22,552 nucleotides of DNA from a virus: IMG/VR virus record IMGVR_UViG_3300044732_001243, positions 1 to 22,552 of that record; one strand, 5' to 3'. Below, one piece after another: positions 11,857 to 21,781 of the stretch. The position numbers and the translations under genes are program-made. Position 1 is the stretch's first letter; the number at the start of each line of letters is the position of its first letter. Under the pieces are notes generated by a model. The model had not been told where the DNA came from. It saw only the letters and a program-made list of their open reading frames with translations, and did not search any database.

Positions 11857-12798
11857 GTGTTAAGTAGCAATGATAAAAATAAGGTAATTACTGCCCTTAC
11901 TAATGTATTGGGTAGCGGTCTTACTCTAAAAGGTAATGAATTAGCATTTCACTGCCCTTTTTGTAATCACCACAAACCAAAACTACAAGTTAATACTGAA
12001 ACTCAAAAATGGCATTGTTGGACTTGTAATAGTGGTGGTAAGAAATTAACATCCTTACTTCGTAAATTAGATGTAGATAGAAAAACTATATCTCTCATTA
12101 GAGAAATCTATGGTGATAGTAATTGGACACCACAACAAGAAGATGCTGAAACAAAAGTATTCATTCAACTTCCAAAAGAATTTATTAGTTTAGCAGAACA
12201 ACCAAAAGGATTTAATCCTGAATATAAACATGCTATGTTCTATCTTACTCAAAGAGGAATTGGTATGAAGGAGATTATTAAATATAATATTGGTTATTGT
12301 AAAGAAGGATTATATTCCCGTAGAGTTATTATACCATCTTATGATTCAAATGGACAATTAAATTACTTCGTTTCTCGTTCATATTATTCAGAAGAGAAAA
12401 TGAAATATAAAAATCCACCAATTAGTAAAAATATAATAGGATTTGAATCGCAAGTTAATTGGAACGAACCAATTATATTATGTGAGGGTGTATTTGATGC
12501 AATTACAATTAAAAGAAATGCAATTCCACTATTGGGTAAATTTCCATCAAAACAATTAGTTGAAAAAATCTTTATGAGTGGAGTTACCGATATTGTTATT
12601 TCATTGGATAATGATGCGATTAACGAAGCACTTAAAGCAGCAGAGTATTTTAGAAAGCAGGGAATAAACGTTAAGATGATGTATCTTAGAGATAAAGATG
12701 CATCTGATATGGGATATGTAAAATTTTATGAAGAACTAAAGAAAACTAAAGAGTTTTCAAGCGAAGAATTACTATTAAACAAAATAAATAGTTTATGA
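11857..12798 (+). CDS. DnaG-type DNA primase (zinc-binding and Toprim domains, no helicase; 313 aa)
   Basis: The protein makes RNA primers at the replication fork. Numbering from GTG 11857, a zinc-binding domain has cysteines 33, 36, 54 and 57 (HCPFC and HCWTC). A Toprim domain follows at about 205-260, with LCEGVFDAI (catalytic Glu) and SLDNDA (metal-binding Asp pair). The length is close to stand-alone phage primases such as T4 gp61, and no helicase follows as it does in T7 gp4. The start is uncertain. TTG 11839 (319 aa) lies inside the promoter, and GTG 11857 falls at the predicted transcript start. TTG 11908 (296 aa) still keeps the zinc motif. An ATG at 11870 is out of frame. I chose 11857 as the better start codon. 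The stop overlaps the next gene's ATG (ATGA), indicating translational coupling. Confidence 0.93.
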   Translation: MLSSNDKNKVITALTNVLGSGLTLKGNELAFHCPFCNHHKPKLQVNTETQKWHCWTCNSGGKKLTSLLRKLDVDRKTISLIREIYGDSNWTPQQEDAETKVFIQLPKEFISLAEQPKGFNPEYKHAMFYLTQRGIGMKEIIKYNIGYCKEGLYSRRVIIPSYDSNGQLNYFVSRSYYSEEKMKYKNPPISKNIIGFESQVNWNEPIILCEGVFDAITIKRNAIPLLGKFPSKQLVEKIFMSGVTDIVISLDNDAINEALKAAEYFRKQGINVKMMYLRDKDASDMGYVKFYEELKKTKEFSSEELLLNKINSL

Positions 12799-15700
12799 AA
12801 AGATTAAAAACAATCTATCATATTGCGGATGTACACATTCGTAACGTACAAAGACACAAAGAGTATAGACAAGTGTTTGAAAAGATGTTTGAAGAAATTC
12901 GTAAAAGAGGTACGGAAAATTCACTCATCTATTTAGCAGGTGATATTGCCCATGCTAAATTGGAATTATCTCCTGAATTAGTTAGAGAGATAAGTTGGTT
13001 ATTTACGGAATGTTCTAAACATTGTGAAACTATTCTTATTACGGGTAACCACGATTGTAATATGAACAACTCCGATAGATTAGATGTACTTACTCCAATT
13101 GTAGAAGCATTGAATCTTCCCAACTTTACATACCTAAGAGATACGCAAGTATATTCTATTGGTGATGTTGACTTTGGGGTGTTCAGTATCTTCGATGACA
13201 AAGCAAATTGGCCAAAAGCCAATACGATGTTTGGAAATAAAAAGGTAGCATTATTCCACGGACCAGTTGATAATTCGCAAACCGATGTTGGATATGTAGT
13301 ATCATCTCGCCATTTCACCACCGATATGTTTGATGGATACGATTTAGCATTGTTGGGAGATATTCATAAAAGACAAACTATGATTTCGCCAAGCGGATGT
13401 AAAGTAGTTTATGCTGGTTCATTAGTACAACAAAACTTTGGTGAAAGTTTAACCGGACACGGATTCTTAGCTTGGGATATGGATTCATTTAAATATGAAG
13501 CAATCGATATTCCGAATGAATATGGTTATTATACATTAGATGTTGATAATGGTGTAGTTCCGATTGTAACGGATATGCCAAAGAAACCTCGTTTGAGAGT
13601 TCGTTTATCTAATACTGATACGGCTGATACAAAGAAAGTTATTACTGAAATTAAAATGAGATATGGTGTTGAAGATTTTACAATCATCAGAACCGATTCA
13701 TTTAATAAACAAAAGACCGGAAATAGATTAAGTAAATTAGATTTTGAAGATGTAACCGATATCAATCATCAAAATACATTGATACGAGATTACGTTCAGA
13801 GAATGATGCCATTTACAACTCAAACGGATTTGGATGGATTGGAAGTAATTAATAGAGATATCAATAGTAGAATAACGCAAGAAGAAATACATAGAAACAT
13901 TCATTGGAAACCAATTAAATTCACATTCAGTAATATGTTTTCATATGGTGAGAATAATAAAATTGATTTCCAAAAGATTGGTGGATTAATGGGATTGTTT
14001 GCACCAAACGCAGCGGGTAAATCATCACTATTCGATGCCATTTCATTTTGTTTATACGATAAAAGTAGTAGAGCATTCAAAGCTCAAAACATTATGAATA
14101 ATCGTAAATCCGATTTTGAATGCGAATTACACTTCCAAGTAAATGGGATGGATTTCTATATTAAGAGAACTGCTAAAACCATTAACAAAGGTAAGAATGT
14201 TAAAGTAGATGTACACTTTTGGAAAGAAGAAGGTGGTGTTGTAACTTCTTTAAATGGAACGGAACGTAGAGATACAAATGCGGTGATTGAACAATACGTT
14301 GGTAAGTATGAAGATTTCGTATTAACTGCTTTATCTTTGCAAGGTAACAATTCTATATTCATTGATAAATCTCAAAGCGAAAGAAAAGATTTATTAGCAC
14401 AATTTATGGGATTAAATGTATTCGATAAATTATACGAAACCGCAACCGAAGATATCAAAGAAGTTGCAGTTCTTATTAAAAACTTTAAGAAAACCGATTT
14501 TACAACTGAATTGGCTGAAAAAGGATTAGAAAAGCAAACTAAGAAATCCGAATTAAGAGGTTTAGAGAAAACTTTAGAAAGTAGGTCAATTGATGTAACT
14601 GATTTATCCAATAGAATATTGGGATTAACAAAAGAGTTGGTGCCAGTAGATGGTAATTTAGATTTAGAAAAATTAGAAAAGAAGAAAAACGATATTGGTA
14701 GAGATATCTTACACGTACTTTCAGAAGAGAAGCATAAGAAAACTAAATTAGAAGAATATGTCGATGCAATTTCGGAAATATCTAAATCAATTGAAGATAA
14801 GAAATTAATCAATGGACAACCAATTGAAGAAGCTAAGAAAGAATGGGATGTACTTAAAGGTGAAATAAATAATACCGAACGTTATATTGGATTAGTGGAA
14901 CAATCGTTGGAATCTAATAGAGAAAAACTTTCACATTTAGCTCAACACGAATATGACCCTAATTGTAATTTTTGTACGAATAATGTATTTGTAAAAGATG
15001 CAAAGGAAACGGAAAAGAGAGTAGAAGAGCAACTTATTGATTTAGAAGAAGTTCAAACTAAATTAAATGGATTAATATCGCAAGCTAGTAAATTAGCAGA
15101 TGTAGATGAACAATGGGATGAGTTAGTGGATTTAAAAGCCAAATATCAAAAAGCAATTGTAATCAAAGAGAAAACAATTGCGGAATTGCATGGATTCGAA
15201 ACTCAACAACAATTATATGATAATCAGTTAGAGCAAGTAGTAGCAGATATTCAGCGATATCACGATAATGAAGATACTATCAAACGCAATAAGCAAATTG
15301 AAACCATCATCAATGGATTAAATCAAACCAAAGGTGAAATTGAAACGGAGATTAAATCTATTAACAAAGAGATAGCAACATTGAATGGCTCTATTTCTTC
15401 ATTAGAATCGTTTATAGAGAGAGTAAAGTTGCAGATAGATGAAGTTAAGGAATTGGAAGAAAAGAATCGACTATACACTTATTATTTAGATGCGGTGAAG
15501 CGTGATGGAGTTCCTTATGAACTGATTTCCAAAGCTATGCCTGTTATTGAAAATGAAATCAATAATATCTTAGGACAAGTTGTTGATTTTGGAATTATAA
15601 TGGATATCGATGGAAAAAACATCAATGCAAAGATTGTGTACGAAGACCAAGAATGGCCTTTAGAGATGTGTAGTGGAATGGAGAAATTTGTAAGTGGATT

Positions 15701-15941
15701 AGCAATTAGAGTAGCTCTAATTAACATATGTAACTTACCTCGTCCAAACTTCTTAGTAATCGATGAAGGATTTGGTACATTGGATGCAAATAACTTATCA
15801 TCTTTATTTATGATGATGCAGTATTTAAAAACTCAATTCGATTTCATTTGGATGATTTCTCACTTAGAACAAATGAGAGATATCGTAGATGGATTGATAG
15901 AGATAAAGAAAATAGATGGGTTTAGTAAGATTGATTTCTAA
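12795..15941 (+). CDS. SbcD/Mre11-SbcC/Rad50 fusion (T4 gp47-gp46-like) recombination nuclease-ATPase (1048 aa)
   Basis: Residues 1-345 are an Mre11/SbcD calcineurin-type nuclease with DVH (Asp12, His14), AGDIAH (Asp50), GNHD (84-87), a FHGPVD motif and GDIH (188-191). Residues about 370-1048 are a Rad50/SbcC ATPase: Walker A APNAAGKSS (403-411), a long coiled coil, a CNFC zinc hook (Cys724, Cys727), signature CSGMEKF (959-965), Walker B FLVIDE (986-991), D-loop GTLD and His1023. The two halves are separate proteins in T4 (gp47 and gp46) and in E. coli (SbcD and SbcC), where they resect DNA ends and open hairpins. Here both are complete in one chain. Walker A has Ala where Rad50 proteins usually have Gly twice (GPNGAGKS), but the invariant GK[ST] is intact. 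Translation is coupled to primase by ATGA. Its 3' end overlaps the minus-strand gene by 20 bp. Confidence 0.95.
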   Translation: MKRLKTIYHIADVHIRNVQRHKEYRQVFEKMFEEIRKRGTENSLIYLAGDIAHAKLELSPELVREISWLFTECSKHCETILITGNHDCNMNNSDRLDVLTPIVEALNLPNFTYLRDTQVYSIGDVDFGVFSIFDDKANWPKANTMFGNKKVALFHGPVDNSQTDVGYVVSSRHFTTDMFDGYDLALLGDIHKRQTMISPSGCKVVYAGSLVQQNFGESLTGHGFLAWDMDSFKYEAIDIPNEYGYYTLDVDNGVVPIVTDMPKKPRLRVRLSNTDTADTKKVITEIKMRYGVEDFTIIRTDSFNKQKTGNRLSKLDFEDVTDINHQNTLIRDYVQRMMPFTTQTDLDGLEVINRDINSRITQEEIHRNIHWKPIKFTFSNMFSYGENNKIDFQKIGGLMGLFAPNAAGKSSLFDAISFCLYDKSSRAFKAQNIMNNRKSDFECELHFQVNGMDFYIKRTAKTINKGKNVKVDVHFWKEEGGVVTSLNGTERRDTNAVIEQYVGKYEDFVLTALSLQGNNSIFIDKSQSERKDLLAQFMGLNVFDKLYETATEDIKEVAVLIKNFKKTDFTTELAEKGLEKQTKKSELRGLEKTLESRSIDVTDLSNRILGLTKELVPVDGNLDLEKLEKKKNDIGRDILHVLSEEKHKKTKLEEYVDAISEISKSIEDKKLINGQPIEEAKKEWDVLKGEINNTERYIGLVEQSLESNREKLSHLAQHEYDPNCNFCTNNVFVKDAKETEKRVEEQLIDLEEVQTKLNGLISQASKLADVDEQWDELVDLKAKYQKAIVIKEKTIAELHGFETQQQLYDNQLEQVVADIQRYHDNEDTIKRNKQIETIINGLNQTKGEIETEIKSINKEIATLNGSISSLESFIERVKLQIDEVKELEEKNRLYTYYLDAVKRDGVPYELISKAMPVIENEINNILGQVVDFGIIMDIDGKNINAKIVYEDQEWPLEMCSGMEKFVSGLAIRVALINICNLPRPNFLVIDEGFGTLDANNLSSLFMMMQYLKTQFDFIWMISHLEQMRDIVDGLIEIKKIDGFSKIDF

Positions 15942-16101
15942 CCTTATCAGCTCTTAACACACCCGCTTGAGGTTTAGTAACACCAACGTGTTTCTTAATT
16001 AGATTTTCAACCAAGCTACCCATCTTAAACCCATGTTCTTCACAATATTGTTTGAGAAGTTCGTGGGTTTCTTTTTTTATTTGCAACATAGCGTATTTCA
16101 T
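15922..16101 (-). CDS. ribbon-helix-helix DNA-binding protein, likely repressor (59 aa)
   Basis: Read on the minus strand, ATG at 16101-16099 opens a 59-codon frame ending at TAA 15924-15922. It begins MKYAMLQIKKETHELLKQYC and continues EEHGFKMGSLVENLIKKHV, then a basic tail (KPQAGVLRADKVRNQSY). The pattern fits an Arc/MetJ/CopG-type ribbon-helix-helix dimer: a short beta strand at about 3-9, helix A at about 11-23, a Gly turn at 24, and helix B at about 28-39. Such proteins bind repeated operators with the paired strand. It is the only minus-strand gene I find. An ATG at 16106 meets a stop after one codon, so 16101 is the start. The 10-bp triple repeat lies six bases upstream and a TATTTATA element 39 bases upstream. 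I infer that it controls itself and perhaps the fibre gene. Confidence 0.85.
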   Translation of the reverse strand: MKYAMLQIKKETHELLKQYCEEHGFKMGSLVENLIKKHVGVTKPQAGVLRADKVRNQSY

Positions 16102-16106
16102 AACAT

Positions 16107-16136
16107 TTAGTTTTCTTTAGTTTTTATTAGTTTTCT
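16107..16136. repeat. three phased 10-bp repeats (TTAGTTTTYW), candidate operator
   Basis: Three consecutive 10-mers, TTAGTTTTCT, TTAGTTTTTA and TTAGTTTTCT, fill positions 16107-16136. The outer two are identical. Read on the minus strand, AAAACTAA recurs every 10 bases just before the ribbon-helix-helix gene. One-turn spacing fits cooperative binding of ribbon-helix-helix dimers on one face of DNA. Alternatives are intrinsically bent DNA from phased T tracts or an A-rich translation leader. Confidence 0.6.
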
Positions 16137-16139
16137 TTA

Positions 16140-16147
16140 TATAAATA
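16140..16147 (-). promoter_or_regulatory. minus-strand TATTTATA element before the ribbon-helix-helix gene
   Basis: The + strand reads TATAAATA here, so the minus strand reads TATTTATA, the same octamer and orientation relative to its gene as at five + strand genes. It lies 38 bases before the ATG at 16101. If it acts as a -10 element, transcription would start within the 10-bp repeat array. Read on the + strand it also equals the T4 late promoter core, but I favour the minus-strand reading because the other five sites have that polarity. Confidence 0.45.
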
Positions 16148-16170
16148 TGAGATAAATAATTTTTTGTGAA

Positions 16171-16178
16171 TATTTATA
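16171..16178 (+). promoter_or_regulatory. TATTTATA element before the tail fibre gene
   Basis: An exact TATTTATA lies 17 bases before ATG 16196. It diverges from the minus-strand copy at 16140-16147, so the 94 bp between the two start codons hold back-to-back candidate promoters plus the 10-bp repeats. A GAGAG just before the ATG is the nearest thing to a Shine-Dalgarno sequence in the window. Confidence 0.5.
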
Positions 16179-16195
16179 ATAAAGAAATTTGAGAG

Positions 16196-19100
16196 ATGGC
16201 TGTAATCAAAAAAACATTATTCGCAGAAAATTTAGATAGATACAATACCTTTGTACAAGATACCAATCCAAACAGTACATATTTCAATGTAACGGAATTA
16301 CCTCAATCATTTACAGGAGGTAAAAACGCATTTTTAATAGCAGGTTCGCCAGAATTGGTAGTCGATACTCTGATTAAAATAGAAATCAAAGATGCATCGG
16401 GTAATATTATATACCACGAGCCGGGTGAAGGTAATTCGGTTACAACTATAAATGGTGAGCAATTTACAAACGAATATTATGAAGGAGTTTCAAAAGTTGT
16501 AGCTGTTTATGTTTACCCCGATACAACCGCATACGGGCCTTGTACAATTACTATATTAGGTGAGTTAAGTTCTTACTACGATGATAATGGATTATTAAGT
16601 CCAATGCCCGTAAATTGGCAAGGTACTTATAATGTAAAATGGCAAAGAAAAGTTAATGTAAATCCTACATTAGCTAATACTACGAAAATTCGTTTTTACA
16701 AAAGACCTACTGCAACCATTTCAGAAATAATATCACCTGTATATAGAATTGATTCAAATACCGGATTAAAAATAAATAGCGGTATTAACCAATCTTTTGC
16801 TAATATACGAGTTTCCAATTTGGAAACATTTGCCGGAGATGTAAAACGAATTAAAGTATTCCGAACATCTTTAGGAGATATTTCTGATTATGATATGATT
16901 CAGGATATATTAGTTGAATCAAAAGAACTATTAACTACATATGGTTTAACGGGAAGCGTTGTAGGAAACACCGGTATTTTTACATCGGAAACTCTTAATA
17001 AATATTGGGTAACGGGTTCACTAAGAGCTACATTGACTGATGATAGAATAGAGAGTGGATTGAAATTAAGTGGTAGTGGGAATTTTATACATTCATCATC
17101 GTTAGATTTAAAAAGTACAAATACATACGAATTAAATTTAGATGCGTTTTATTCATCATCTACTGCAAGTAATTTAGGAATTTATTTAAATTATGTTTCG
17201 CAATCTACAACATATAGTAGTAGTATTGGTACATTGGTTGGCATTAATCCAACAAAAAATCTATTAGATACAACTATACCTTTTACAATAGATAGAGATT
17301 ACCCATCTGCTAGTTTATATTTTTCACAATCGCAGGGAGAATGGCATTTAGGAAATGTTAGTTTAAAATTATCAGAAGATACTGCTTTTTCACCGGATGA
17401 GGTTTCATTTGTTACAACAATGCCTACGGTAGTTGGTAATGAGGATTTTAATTTTAAATTTGAATTTTACGATGTAAATAATAACTATGTTCCTGTTTCG
17501 GTAACGGGTAGTGCTAACTTTACAGGAGGTTCAAATGCTATTTCAAAAATATTAACATTTGAAACTGACAGAACGGCATTCAGATTTTCTTCTGGTTCAG
17601 TTGGTAACCCACCATTTCAACAAGTAAGATTTAAAACACAAAGAACAAACTTTACCGGCTCAATAACATATTCGAGTTCATCGTTTGATATCAATGGTAA
17701 TTATATAGTACCATCATCGTATGCTGGGCAATACCCCGGCGCACTTTCAAACCCATCCGATTCGGGAGCATTATTGAGTATTGCAAATTTTAGTGGTAGT
17801 GTTAGAAGTGTAATAGTTGGTTCGATTACATATACTGCATCGTGTGAAGGTGTTGAAGAATATGAAACAATTTATAGATTTGAAGATGGAGATAATGCCC
17901 CTGGTGTCTTTGTAACATCTAATACAAATCAATTTATATATAAAGCAACCGATTTATCATTAAATCCATCGGGCCAAACAATAACAATTGAAGCTAAGCG
18001 TAAAAACTTAGCATCGGCAACAACACCATTGACTGTAAATTCGGGAAGTGGAAAACCACCATTAACATTTATATCTACAAACGCAACAAATGGAGTAGAT
18101 ACTTATACATTAGCCGGAAATGTGTATCCATATGGAACGGGTGAAACGACATACTTCGTTTCAGGTTCAGACCAATTTGGAAATGAATTTTCAGATGCAA
18201 TAAAAATAACTCCTGTAAAAATATTAGATGGATTATCTGCAACTCTTACAAATGATAACGCATCGCTTCCTGCACTTTCTAATGGATTTGTAGCAAGTGG
18301 TTCGTTCTTATTCACATCAGGTTCAATTAGTGTAAAAGTTGGTAATGAAACTATTATTTTTGATGATGATAATGATGGTAATAGAGCAAATAATACTTTT
18401 GCTATAACAAATGTAAGTGGTGTTGGGTGTACTCCAAATAGTTCTAACCCTGCTGAAAATTCTTATAGTATAACAACCCTATCGGCTGATAGTGGTTCAT
18501 TAGATATAACAATTGATTACAAAGATGGTGGAGGTGATAGTACAAACCTTATTAAAACTGTTACTTATACAAAGAATAAAAAAGCAGCCCCCGTTTTAGC
18601 AATTTCATCTACAAACAAAGTACAATCCGTTTCAGCTAAATCTACTGGTGCACAAATTGATGCATTTTCAAATGTAACTATAAGTGTAAATGAAACATAT
18701 AATGGTTCGACTACATCAAAAAGTTTAACATCATTAACAGCTACATCTTCCGATATTTCATCTATTGTAACCGATTATACTACCGGTGTAATTACTTTAA
18801 ATGGTAGAACTTTAGCGGATGGAACTAATTCAACTACGATATCGGTAACGGCAGTAGTAACGGATTCGGAAGGTGTTAGTAGAACTTTAACTGATACAAT
18901 ATCATTATCTAAAGTTAAAAAAGCACCACCAACTATTACTTTTGCAATTACTCCATCATCGCAAACAGTAGCTGCAAGTAGTGTTGGAGTGTTGACTGGT
19001 ACAATTGTAGACCCGGTATTAAGTGCGTTTGAAGGTTCATCTACATTAACATATAATCAGGGAACACTAAGTACTTCTCAATATAAAATAACAAATGTAA

Positions 19101-21781
19101 CGGGTGTAACTGTTGGAAGTACTACACCATCAACATCTACAATAGATGTTACAGCCGTATCGGCTACTGATAATACGGGAATAGTTACAATCGCATATAT
19201 TGATTCGGAAGGAACTTCTGGAACATCTACTATTAAATTTACAATTTCAAAAGCATTAGCGGGTGTACAAGGTATAGATGGTGATGATGGTGCACCTGGC
19301 GCAGATGGTAGAAGAACCGCAACGGGTATGATATTCTATCAAGTTACCGCCGCATCTCAACCATCAACTCCAACGGCAGCTTCTTATACATTTTCAACAA
19401 ATTCGTTTGGCTCACTTACATCCAATTGGGCAGTAGGTGCCCCTACTTATACCGCAGGAAATAGTAACAAATATTGGTATTCAACTTATACAGCAGTAGA
19501 AACTACCGCTGGAGGTGGAACAGCAGTACCAACATTTAGTGCTCCCGCACAAGCGATTAACTTTACGGGATTAGTAACATTTACATCAGCTAATAATATT
19601 AGTGATGGAACTAATACTTCAAATATAGTAACACCTGGAGCAGTAGCAAATCATATTGGTGGAGCAAACGTAACTACAATTGAAGGTGGTAAAATATCAA
19701 CAGGTGTAATAACATCGACCGGATATACATTACCATCAGGAGAGACGTTAGCATCGGGAACATTTACAAGCGCAGGAACTATTTTTAATTTAGATAATGG
19801 TTCATTACGAAGTAAAAACTTTTATATAGCATCAAATGGTGATGCAGTATTTAAAGGAACAATGCAAATTGGTGGTACTGATTTAACTGCGGCTAATACT
19901 TTAAATGCAAATACAACTAAATCACAGGTTGGTTTATCGAATGTAGAAAATTTAACTGCACAAAACCAAGCTCAAACGGGATTGATTGCCGGAACTACGA
20001 TTACGGGGGGTGGTATAACATTAAGTGGTGGCGGTAACATTAAAGGTGGACAAACCGATTACAATTCAGGAACAGGTTTCTTTTTAGGATATAGTGGTTC
20101 AAAATATAAATTTTCAATAGGTAACGCATCATCTAAAGGAATTACTTGGGATGGCGATACTTTATCAATCGGGGGTGATGTTAATATTGGTGCTAATTTA
20201 GCATCTGCATTAACAACATCCACAGCACTAACCAATGGATTGAATACCAAAATTACTACGGGAGCAGCTGCTACCGATGTTAATAACAATACTACAAACA
20301 TTAGTGGTAACAAAATTAGAACAGGTGTAATTCAATCAACCAACCACACAGGAACTGCCGATGGTAGTGGATTCGCTGATGCAGGAATGTCGATAGATTT
20401 GGCAGTTGGTGGTATATCCGCTAAAAAGTTTAGAATTACCGCAGCCGGAGATGCATATTTTAAAGGAGATGTAACGGGTGCTAGTGGTACATTTAGTGGT
20501 AATCTTAGTGGTGCTACTATTAGTGGGGGTAGTATTTCAATTGGTAGTAGTTTTTCGGTAAATAGTTCAGGAGTATTGAGTGCTTCTGGTGCAACTATTA
20601 GTGGTAACTTAACGGCTACGGGGGGTACATTCGGTGGTTGGACTATTGATGGCAATACATTAAGGTCAAATTCAAGCGCTATTATATTGGATGGTGGTAG
20701 TAATGCCATAAGTATGACTGTTAGTGGATTGACTCGTTTTAATTTAAATACAAATAGTTCATTACCAGAACCAAACGTTTCGGGTGGTGGTAGTATTTCA
20801 ATAGGAGCAATTTATGAAATAAAGCAAGGTAATGGTACGGCACAATATGATTCGAACACATTTACAGCTCCAAATTCAGTTATTACAAACTTTGAAATTT
20901 TCTTTACAAATACTTCCTACGCTGTAGAATATGGTGGTGGAGGTACATCGAATGTAAACGCATATTATAGAATTAGAAATACAACAACGGGCAATGTAGC
21001 AGCTTCGGTATTATTGGGTAGTGCGGCTGCACAGGGTGGAGATAACTCCTACACATATGGTAGTATATCGGGAGGTGGTGTTTATCAGGCTCTTTCAAAT
21101 TTAGCAAACGCAAATGCAATATTGGAAGTACAGGTAACAGCCGGTCATTCATATAGAGCCGAACTTTATTTTGAATATGATACCCCAGTTGAAGGTACAC
21201 CAACGGATGGTGATTCAAGTTATATTAAATTAGAATGGTCTACGGTAACAATAAATGTAGCGGTTCAAGTAGCTACAGTTGTTATTAATGGTGGTGGATT
21301 CCTTTCAGCAGTAAATGCCGGTAAATATTTAAGAATGTCAAACGTTACTACCGATGCAGTAAATATTGAAGGTGGTATAAAATGGGATAAAGTAGATGGT
21401 AGACCTGGGTATGTAGCTAGAGGTTGGTGTATAGCAACTTGGTCAAATAGAACCAACAACTATGCATCTGCTACAATTCAAGCATCAGGAAATATATTAG
21501 CAGTTGGTAGAACTAATGTAGGATGGCACAATGTATCATTTGTAAACTCATTACCAAAAGGTAATATTGGTGGATTTGGAGATTATGATACCAAAGCAGC
21601 AATTTTTGCAAGTGGATTAAGAAGATATACCGGTACGGGTGCAAGTAGTGGAGAATACCAAATTGATATAGCTACAAACCCAAATTGGGGTGGTGGTAGT
21701 TCTGTTATGGTTTATACATATGATAACGATAGAAACGCACCTGAAAATGTCAATTTATTAAATGTAGTAGTATTTGCTTAA
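16196..21781 (+). CDS. giant tail fibre / host-recognition protein (1861 aa)
   Basis: ATG at 16196. Residues 1-185 form an N-terminal, probably virion-attaching beta module. Residues about 190-680 are further beta-sandwich regions, Ser/Gly/Thr-rich. Three Ig-like units of about 113 residues follow at 680-795, 795-908 and 908-1022, two joined by a VKKAP/NKKAP hinge. Six collagen-like Gly-X-Y triplets occupy 1023-1040. Next is a module with TGMIFYQVTAA and YWYSTYTAVE of a type seen in phage central tail and fibre proteins. Two related units read SLRSKNFYIASNGDAVFKG (about 1200) and GISAKKFRITAAGDAYFKG (about 1403), and residues about 1425-1485 are a Gly/Ser/Thr-rich beta-helix-like stretch. The end (from about 1741, ARGWCIATW) resembles common fibre C-terminal domains. 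It probably trimerises and binds the host surface. No lyase, sialidase or peptidase motif was recognised. Confidence 0.92.
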   Translation: MAVIKKTLFAENLDRYNTFVQDTNPNSTYFNVTELPQSFTGGKNAFLIAGSPELVVDTLIKIEIKDASGNIIYHEPGEGNSVTTINGEQFTNEYYEGVSKVVAVYVYPDTTAYGPCTITILGELSSYYDDNGLLSPMPVNWQGTYNVKWQRKVNVNPTLANTTKIRFYKRPTATISEIISPVYRIDSNTGLKINSGINQSFANIRVSNLETFAGDVKRIKVFRTSLGDISDYDMIQDILVESKELLTTYGLTGSVVGNTGIFTSETLNKYWVTGSLRATLTDDRIESGLKLSGSGNFIHSSSLDLKSTNTYELNLDAFYSSSTASNLGIYLNYVSQSTTYSSSIGTLVGINPTKNLLDTTIPFTIDRDYPSASLYFSQSQGEWHLGNVSLKLSEDTAFSPDEVSFVTTMPTVVGNEDFNFKFEFYDVNNNYVPVSVTGSANFTGGSNAISKILTFETDRTAFRFSSGSVGNPPFQQVRFKTQRTNFTGSITYSSSSFDINGNYIVPSSYAGQYPGALSNPSDSGALLSIANFSGSVRSVIVGSITYTASCEGVEEYETIYRFEDGDNAPGVFVTSNTNQFIYKATDLSLNPSGQTITIEAKRKNLASATTPLTVNSGSGKPPLTFISTNATNGVDTYTLAGNVYPYGTGETTYFVSGSDQFGNEFSDAIKITPVKILDGLSATLTNDNASLPALSNGFVASGSFLFTSGSISVKVGNETIIFDDDNDGNRANNTFAITNVSGVGCTPNSSNPAENSYSITTLSADSGSLDITIDYKDGGGDSTNLIKTVTYTKNKKAAPVLAISSTNKVQSVSAKSTGAQIDAFSNVTISVNETYNGSTTSKSLTSLTATSSDISSIVTDYTTGVITLNGRTLADGTNSTTISVTAVVTDSEGVSRTLTDTISLSKVKKAPPTITFAITPSSQTVAASSVGVLTGTIVDPVLSAFEGSSTLTYNQGTLSTSQYKITNVTGVTVGSTTPSTSTIDVTAVSATDNTGIVTIAYIDSEGTSGTSTIKFTISKALAGVQGIDGDDGAPGADGRRTATGMIFYQVTAASQPSTPTAASYTFSTNSFGSLTSNWAVGAPTYTAGNSNKYWYSTYTAVETTAGGGTAVPTFSAPAQAINFTGLVTFTSANNISDGTNTSNIVTPGAVANHIGGANVTTIEGGKISTGVITSTGYTLPSGETLASGTFTSAGTIFNLDNGSLRSKNFYIASNGDAVFKGTMQIGGTDLTAANTLNANTTKSQVGLSNVENLTAQNQAQTGLIAGTTITGGGITLSGGGNIKGGQTDYNSGTGFFLGYSGSKYKFSIGNASSKGITWDGDTLSIGGDVNIGANLASALTTSTALTNGLNTKITTGAAATDVNNNTTNISGNKIRTGVIQSTNHTGTADGSGFADAGMSIDLAVGGISAKKFRITAAGDAYFKGDVTGASGTFSGNLSGATISGGSISIGSSFSVNSSGVLSASGATISGNLTATGGTFGGWTIDGNTLRSNSSAIILDGGSNAISMTVSGLTRFNLNTNSSLPEPNVSGGGSISIGAIYEIKQGNGTAQYDSNTFTAPNSVITNFEIFFTNTSYAVEYGGGGTSNVNAYYRIRNTTTGNVAASVLLGSAAAQGGDNSYTYGSISGGGVYQALSNLANANAILEVQVTAGHSYRAELYFEYDTPVEGTPTDGDSSYIKLEWSTVTINVAVQVATVVINGGGFLSAVNAGKYLRMSNVTTDAVNIEGGIKWDKVDGRPGYVARGWCIATWSNRTNNYASATIQASGNILAVGRTNVGWHNVSFVNSLPKGNIGGFGDYDTKAAIFASGLRRYTGTGASSGEYQIDIATNPNWGGGSSVMVYTYDNDRNAPENVNLLNVVVFA

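Follow-up and report, generated by a model that had tools for sequence, protein, structure and literature searches.

A putative ribbon-helix-helix regulator gene of large uncultured phages with a helically phased, operator-like array at its own promoter-like box

Introduction

Arc, a small ribbon-helix-helix (RHH) protein of phage P22, binds paired half-sites, and MetJ and omega are repressors whose RHH dimers assemble cooperatively into arrays along tandem sites. MotA, a non-RHH protein, supports activation at the middle promoters of T4. ParR, an autoregulated RHH protein, recognizes direct repeats of 10 bp next to its own promoter (PMC4911067, PMC5016525).

Here, we analysed a 22,552-nt stretch of viral DNA (IMG/VR record IMGVR_UViG_3300044732_001243, positions 1 to 22,552), hereafter called the window, in which a 59-codon minus-strand gene is preceded by three 10-bp repeats. 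This gene most probably encodes an autoregulated RHH regulator that would load the 10-bp units at its own TATTTATA promoter and act also at a gene of the head region.

Results

The minus-strand gene and its product

The locus comprises the following features, in plus-strand order.
12734..12752 (+), candidate operator AACTAAAGAAAACTAAAGA, 43-61 bp upstream of sbcDC, in the 3' end of the primase gene
12795..15941 (+), fused SbcD-SbcC (gp47-gp46-like) gene, sbcDC, convergent with the RHH gene
15922..16101 (-), 59-aa RHH (Arc-like) gene with an ATG start, from its open reading frame, profiles and conservation
16107..16116 (-), putative operator unit O3 (AGAAAACTAA), a helical turn away from O2
16117..16126 (-), putative operator unit O2 (TAAAAACTAA), a helical turn away from O1
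16127..16136 (-), putative operator unit O1 (AGAAAACTAA on the minus strand), whose AAACTAA core begins 14 bp past the TATTTAT box start
16140..16147 (-), promoter-like octamer TATTTATA ahead of the RHH gene
16171..16178 (+), promoter-like octamer TATTTATA ahead of the divergent fibre gene
16196..21781 (+), gene of the 1861-aa fibre protein, divergent from the RHH gene in almost every relative

The minus-strand ORF (16101-15922) encodes the protein MKYAMLQIKKETHELLKQYCEEHGFKMGSLVENLIKKHVGVTKPQAGVLRADKVRNQSY, and its 3' end overlaps that of the convergent sbcDC by 20 bp. A scan of viral contigs with this protein returned 127 encoded relatives, from uncultured phages, the best 80 of which share 85-98% identity. 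An SbcCD-anchored search, which exerts no selection on the RHH gene, located it next to SbcCD in most of the loci whose flank was long enough; the offset is often identical (163 bp), and elsewhere the gene follows an inserted one. Across 42 distinct RHH proteins, a set chosen by similarity, 41 of the 59 residues are invariant, and in 75 distinct genes codons 1-38 give a pN of 0.028 and a pS of 0.50 (ratio 0.056); since the loci were collected by sequence similarity, these figures hold for the sampled relatives. With more than 120 relatives and a pN/pS of about 0.06 over codons 1-38, the 59-codon gene called in an earlier sequence-only reading of the window is, as judged from comparative evidence, a real gene under selection.

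That reading had also described it as the sole minus-strand gene, which is true of the window and of relatives of 180-245 kb. In four of these (G001-G004), with >200 genes on one strand, the RHH gene is the sole recurring credible gene on the opposite strand, and the other minor-strand ORFs look spurious. Among five relatives of 180-274 kb, it is the only credible counter-oriented gene common to all; the 274-kb genome G012 carries a few further credible minor-strand genes. The RHH protein has no match among 50,697 phage records, and the 901-bp locus has no relative in the deposited phage records. The gene is monocistronic in the window and no toxin-like ORF adjoins it; a type II toxin-antitoxin system with an RHH antitoxin would have a toxin gene beside it in one operon.

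The assignment of the 59-residue protein as an RHH protein rests on profile matches and on its sequence pattern. The RHH-family profiles matched are PHROG 3180, 'Arc-like repressor' (E 1.3e-6), PHROG 582 (5.8e-4) and Pfam RepB-RCR_reg (PF10723; 3.3e-4, exactly at its threshold, with 42/42 members matching). The 'Arc-like repressor' and RepB-RCR_reg matches bear out the earlier proposal of a likely RHH protein. A RepB/CopB-type plasmid replication regulator was rejected, since the PF10723 match spans just 33 residues at threshold and no rep gene lies beside the RHH gene. The AlphaFold monomer, of weak confidence (pLDDT 67.6), has two helices and draws the N-terminal strand as a helix; a Foldseek search with this model found nothing, and a PDB profile search gave no relative and one spurious match only. 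Comparison by hhalign with Arc and CopG was not significant because the alignment used (A1) is low in diversity. Two distant RHH homologues (L356, L322) have the same residue at 22 of 39 core positions (~55%) and keep both the strand YAM(L/I)QI and 10-bp-phased AAACTAA-like units.

Promoter-like boxes

The octamer TATTTATA is found on the plus strand at 16171-16178 and on the minus strand at 16147-16140; the two copies therefore face outward, as the sequence-only reading had it. Other plus-strand copies in the window are at 2750, 8044, 9979 and 11161, in addition to the one at 16171. With 6 copies found against 7.7 expected, the octamer is not enriched in the window, but each of the six, in the TATTTATA sense, stands immediately before a gene start and is correctly oriented for it. 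In the relative G003, the coding strand has 39 copies (20 intergenic) and the other strand 15 (1 intergenic); the motif precedes the tail sheath, tail tube, head-tail adaptor and fibre genes. Among 78 gapped upstreams, TATTTATA is seen in 19 and the opposite reading in 1, which led us to reject a promoter of the T4 late type (TATAAATA in the direction of transcription). Position and orientation across G003 and the window thus agree with the earlier view of the octamers as promoter elements, and TATTTATA is, on this evidence, a real, orientation-specific promoter-like motif of this phage. It is probably phage-specific and late, its lateness being suggested by the genes downstream of it. If the box lies at -13 to -6, as the T4 late box does (PMC1524935), the array would begin at about +1. 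In 51 of 58 parsed relatives, 28-31 bp separate the divergent boxes of the RHH and fibre genes.

A second promoter class of G003, AATTTGGAAAT followed by GTATATTTG, precedes groEL, exonuclease and portal genes and matches the Bacteroidota TTTG/TAnnTTTG promoter (PMC6847099). A scan for sigma-70 promoters and terminators gave shuffle-level results only, with no terminator past the RHH gene. TATTTAT boxes are also found above two minus-strand ORFs at other loci: a 755-aa ORF (L172:15164-17431) that matches Hint/intein splicing domains, and a 196-aa DNA/RNA non-specific endonuclease (L163:12937-13527; PF01223, 2e-19) with a signal-peptide-like N-terminus.

The phased array

On the plus strand, the repeats read TTAGTTTTCT (16107-16116), TTAGTTTTTA (16117-16126) and TTAGTTTTCT (16127-16136). 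This trio is the top-scoring TRF array in the non-coding DNA of the window and is unique there. A single 10-bp unit is common by chance (25 one-mismatch matches in the window against 27.8 expected), whereas the tandem phasing and the conservation in relatives are, by these comparisons, not a matter of chance. In the direction of the RHH gene, the layout is TATTTAT, the O1 core AAACTAA at 14 bp from the box start, 10-bp steps to O3, 1-7 nt and the ATG. Of 56 distinct upstreams, 55 have O1 at 14 bp from the box, and the O1-O3 distance was scored by script as a multiple of 10 in 55/56; the lone exception, L049, was a calling error, and the unit at -14 gives a distance of 40 there. In 68 loci with distinct SbcCD, the first-to-last spacing is 20 bp (24 loci), 30 bp (31) or 40 bp (13), and none is off phase. 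On the SbcCD tree of these loci, this spacing has changed at least 16 times and the O3-ATG gap (1, 4, 5, 6 or 7) at least 18 times, counts that recombination could raise. The fixed phase of the array, set against the varying O3-ATG gap, therefore indicates that indels are tolerated beside the ATG, and only as whole turns within the array. Slippage in a tandem array could partly give such 10-bp steps; the spacer units are, however, degenerate.

The three repeats at one-turn phase noticed at the outset are thus the window's copy of a conserved array. They had been placed between the divergent promoters; they do fall in that interval, but not centrally, lying between the minus-strand box and the minus-strand ATG. 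Tandem sites of constant pitch at the protein's own promoter, as found here, are what autoregulated RHH repressors have, and in five large relatives no other site scores as high as this array. In three loci with 40-bp arrays (L055, L041, L047), the outer units are direct, unlike the middle pair, which makes an inverted repeat (CTATAAT-GT-ATTATAG in L055).

Gene insertions and losses separate the array from its neighbours in different ways. In L021, L077, L079 and L082, a gene that looks hydrolase-like by eye is inserted between the array and the RHH gene, and the array remains at the promoter of the new operon. In L085, L128 and L145, a gene lies between SbcCD and RHH, and the array remains with RHH; in L099, the fibre gene is replaced by a different divergent gene, and the array again remains. 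A lack of conservation of the array in relatives that keep the gene, which the sequence-only reading had named as refuting evidence, was not seen: in the SbcCD-anchored loci gene and array occur together, and L120, L131 and L135 are without both. The fibre TATTTATA box is still present in L131 and L135. A search for further RHH-less relatives through the L131 fibre yielded five loci only.

The convergent gene at 12795-15941 encodes SbcD and SbcC fused in one 1048-aa protein. They are also fused in Microcystis phage Mel-JY01, whose SbcCD is the closest among the matches listed (40% identity) and has no RHH gene beside it.

Further candidate sites

A single unit, TTTCTTTAGTTTTCTAAAA, also precedes the promoter box of a 406-aa gene whose product begins MANSKLLKEAIADAKAVKETALANAKLALEEAFTPRL (MANSK family). 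By position and resemblance, this is a structural gene of the head/scaffold region; its product has no naming match in PHROG or Pfam. Of 79 distinct upstreams, 74 carry the site with ≤2 mismatches over 19 bp; it stands 21-22 bp away from the box, and the five exceptions amount to at most four losses on a tree. One exception, L288, comes from metagenome 3300032285, which is also the source of the RHH-less contig L131. Among metagenomes in which a member of this clade was sampled, RHH and the head-region site are both present in three related samples (3300032282, 3300034198 and 3300008107) and both absent in 3300032285, an agreement in which the two are paired by sample only. The distant genome G012 has no clear head-region site.

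The candidate operator before sbcDC is the second-best site in G001-G003, with 21.8 bits against a maximum of 18.8 in three shuffles of G003. It falls within the primase codons ELKKTKE, many relatives have lost it, and its conservation may reflect coding constraint only.

The leader of the MANSK gene (L218:1387-1452 and equivalents) is a near-invariant sequence, GTTGATTAATGAATACCCTTCTCTATAAGGTGTGACCGAACAATCAAC. Its fold has two helices, in which a single pair shows compensation on both sides (A-U to G-C in 4/30). It has no Rfam match and may be a new structured RNA in the leader of late head genes.

The host

The phage is a large, uncultured one of myovirus type. In G012, a minor-strand ORF of 1086 aa (28749-32009; L415) has by eye the look of a TonB-dependent (SusC-like) receptor with a signal peptide, and is flanked by two neighbouring minor-strand ORFs. 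Together with the TAnnTTTG-type promoters and the occurrence of relatives in contigs binned as Pedobacter and Chitinophaga, this receptor-like ORF points to a host that is probably a member of the Bacteroidota.

Discussion

We propose that the RHH gene is transcribed leftward from its phage-specific, probably late TATTTATA promoter. RHH dimers would bind the 10-bp units (consensus AGAAAACTAA), one per helical turn and on one face of the DNA. The units run from the predicted transcription start to just short of the start codon, so that the array probably sits at and downstream of that start, and cooperative RHH loading would block initiation and cap RHH synthesis. Since no terminator was found past the RHH gene, repression would also limit antisense transcription into sbcDC. 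RHH probably acts too at the single unit 21-22 bp upstream of the head-region (MANSK) box. That unit could support activation, as MotA does in T4, or repression; its orientation and distance alone do not settle between the two. Perhaps RHH acts also at the weaker site before sbcDC.

According to the sequence-only reading, the locus is a local divergent switch in which RHH binding sets fibre transcription against its own, by occlusion or from upstream of the fibre promoter. Indeed, the array is always upstream of the fibre operon, the divergent boxes would be near enough for mutual exclusion of polymerases, and O1 of the window lies 44 bp upstream of the fibre box, oriented like the head-region unit and about two turns further away. 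On the other hand, the array is placed over the predicted transcription start of RHH and not that of the fibre, and a gene other than the fibre is divergent in L099. Because the fibre keeps its promoter without RHH or array in L131 and L135, the switch is unproven. Control of the fibre is compatible with the 28-31 bp between the boxes, yet unneeded to explain the array, and we retain such a switch as a tentative possibility. A broader role, in which RHH would be a phage-wide late regulator that represses its own counter-oriented promoter through units downstream of the box and activates the late promoters of the head-region and fibre genes from co-oriented upstream units, seems doubtful; if true, it would couple the timing of structural genes to the RHH level.

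The 10-bp unit could instead be a site for another factor, such as a late sigma accessory or a host protein, with RHH not being its ligand, and the presence of a unit upstream of a head-region promoter would suit this. Such a reading is unlikely, given that gene and array are co-present or co-absent and that RHH and the head-region site agree across four metagenomes, by sample matching only. It is very unlikely that the repeats serve translation, as an A-rich 5' leader for RHH in a Shine-Dalgarno-poor host. The units do stand in the predicted leader just before the ATG, and translation initiation in Bacteroidota favours A-rich upstream sequence (PMC6847099), but the unit-ATG distance varies while the unit-unit and unit-promoter distances are fixed, the array stays with the promoter upon gene insertion, and the head-region unit lies outside the predicted transcript, upstream of the promoter box. 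A ParR/parC-like centromere with its binding protein, serving partition or DNA organization, would account for an RHH protein on 10-bp repeats beside its own promoter; it is nevertheless highly improbable here, since there are only 3-5 units, the unit would serve another promoter too, and the immediate neighbours (sbcDC, fibre and inserted genes) include no actin-like motor gene, the partner that a type II parC operon would have.

An autoregulated RHH protein acting also at the head region would provide a candidate regulator, an operator code and a target list for abundant large uncultured phages, probably on Bacteroidota, of whose transcription programme we found no earlier description. The second site would link a 59-residue protein to a head-region gene, and the phase-locked spacing offers a clean natural test of helical-face cooperativity.

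Comparison with known systems

ParR/parC of pSK41-type plasmids likewise combines an RHH protein with direct 10-bp repeats in tandem close to the promoter of that protein and, as proposed for the locus here, with autorepression (PMC4911067, PMC5016525); the locus differs in having no adjoining actin-like partner, far fewer units, a lytic-type phage as carrier and a second promoter-associated site. Arc and Mnt of P22, with further small RHH repressors of phages (PHROG 3180, 582), resemble it in their small size and profile match, whereas here the array is direct and phased at 10 bp, the promoter is of late type and no lysogeny switch is adjacent. MetJ and omega would have in common with it the cooperative loading of RHH dimers on tandem sites, but their units are of 8 or 7 bp and not of 10 bp, and no sequence relation to them was detected. 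The T4 late promoter TATAAATA is likewise an eight-base AT box at structural genes, but TATTTATA, read along transcription, is the reverse complement of the T4 motif. Finally, the head-region site is reminiscent of the MotA box of T4 middle promoters, in that a factor would sit ahead of the box by one to two turns.
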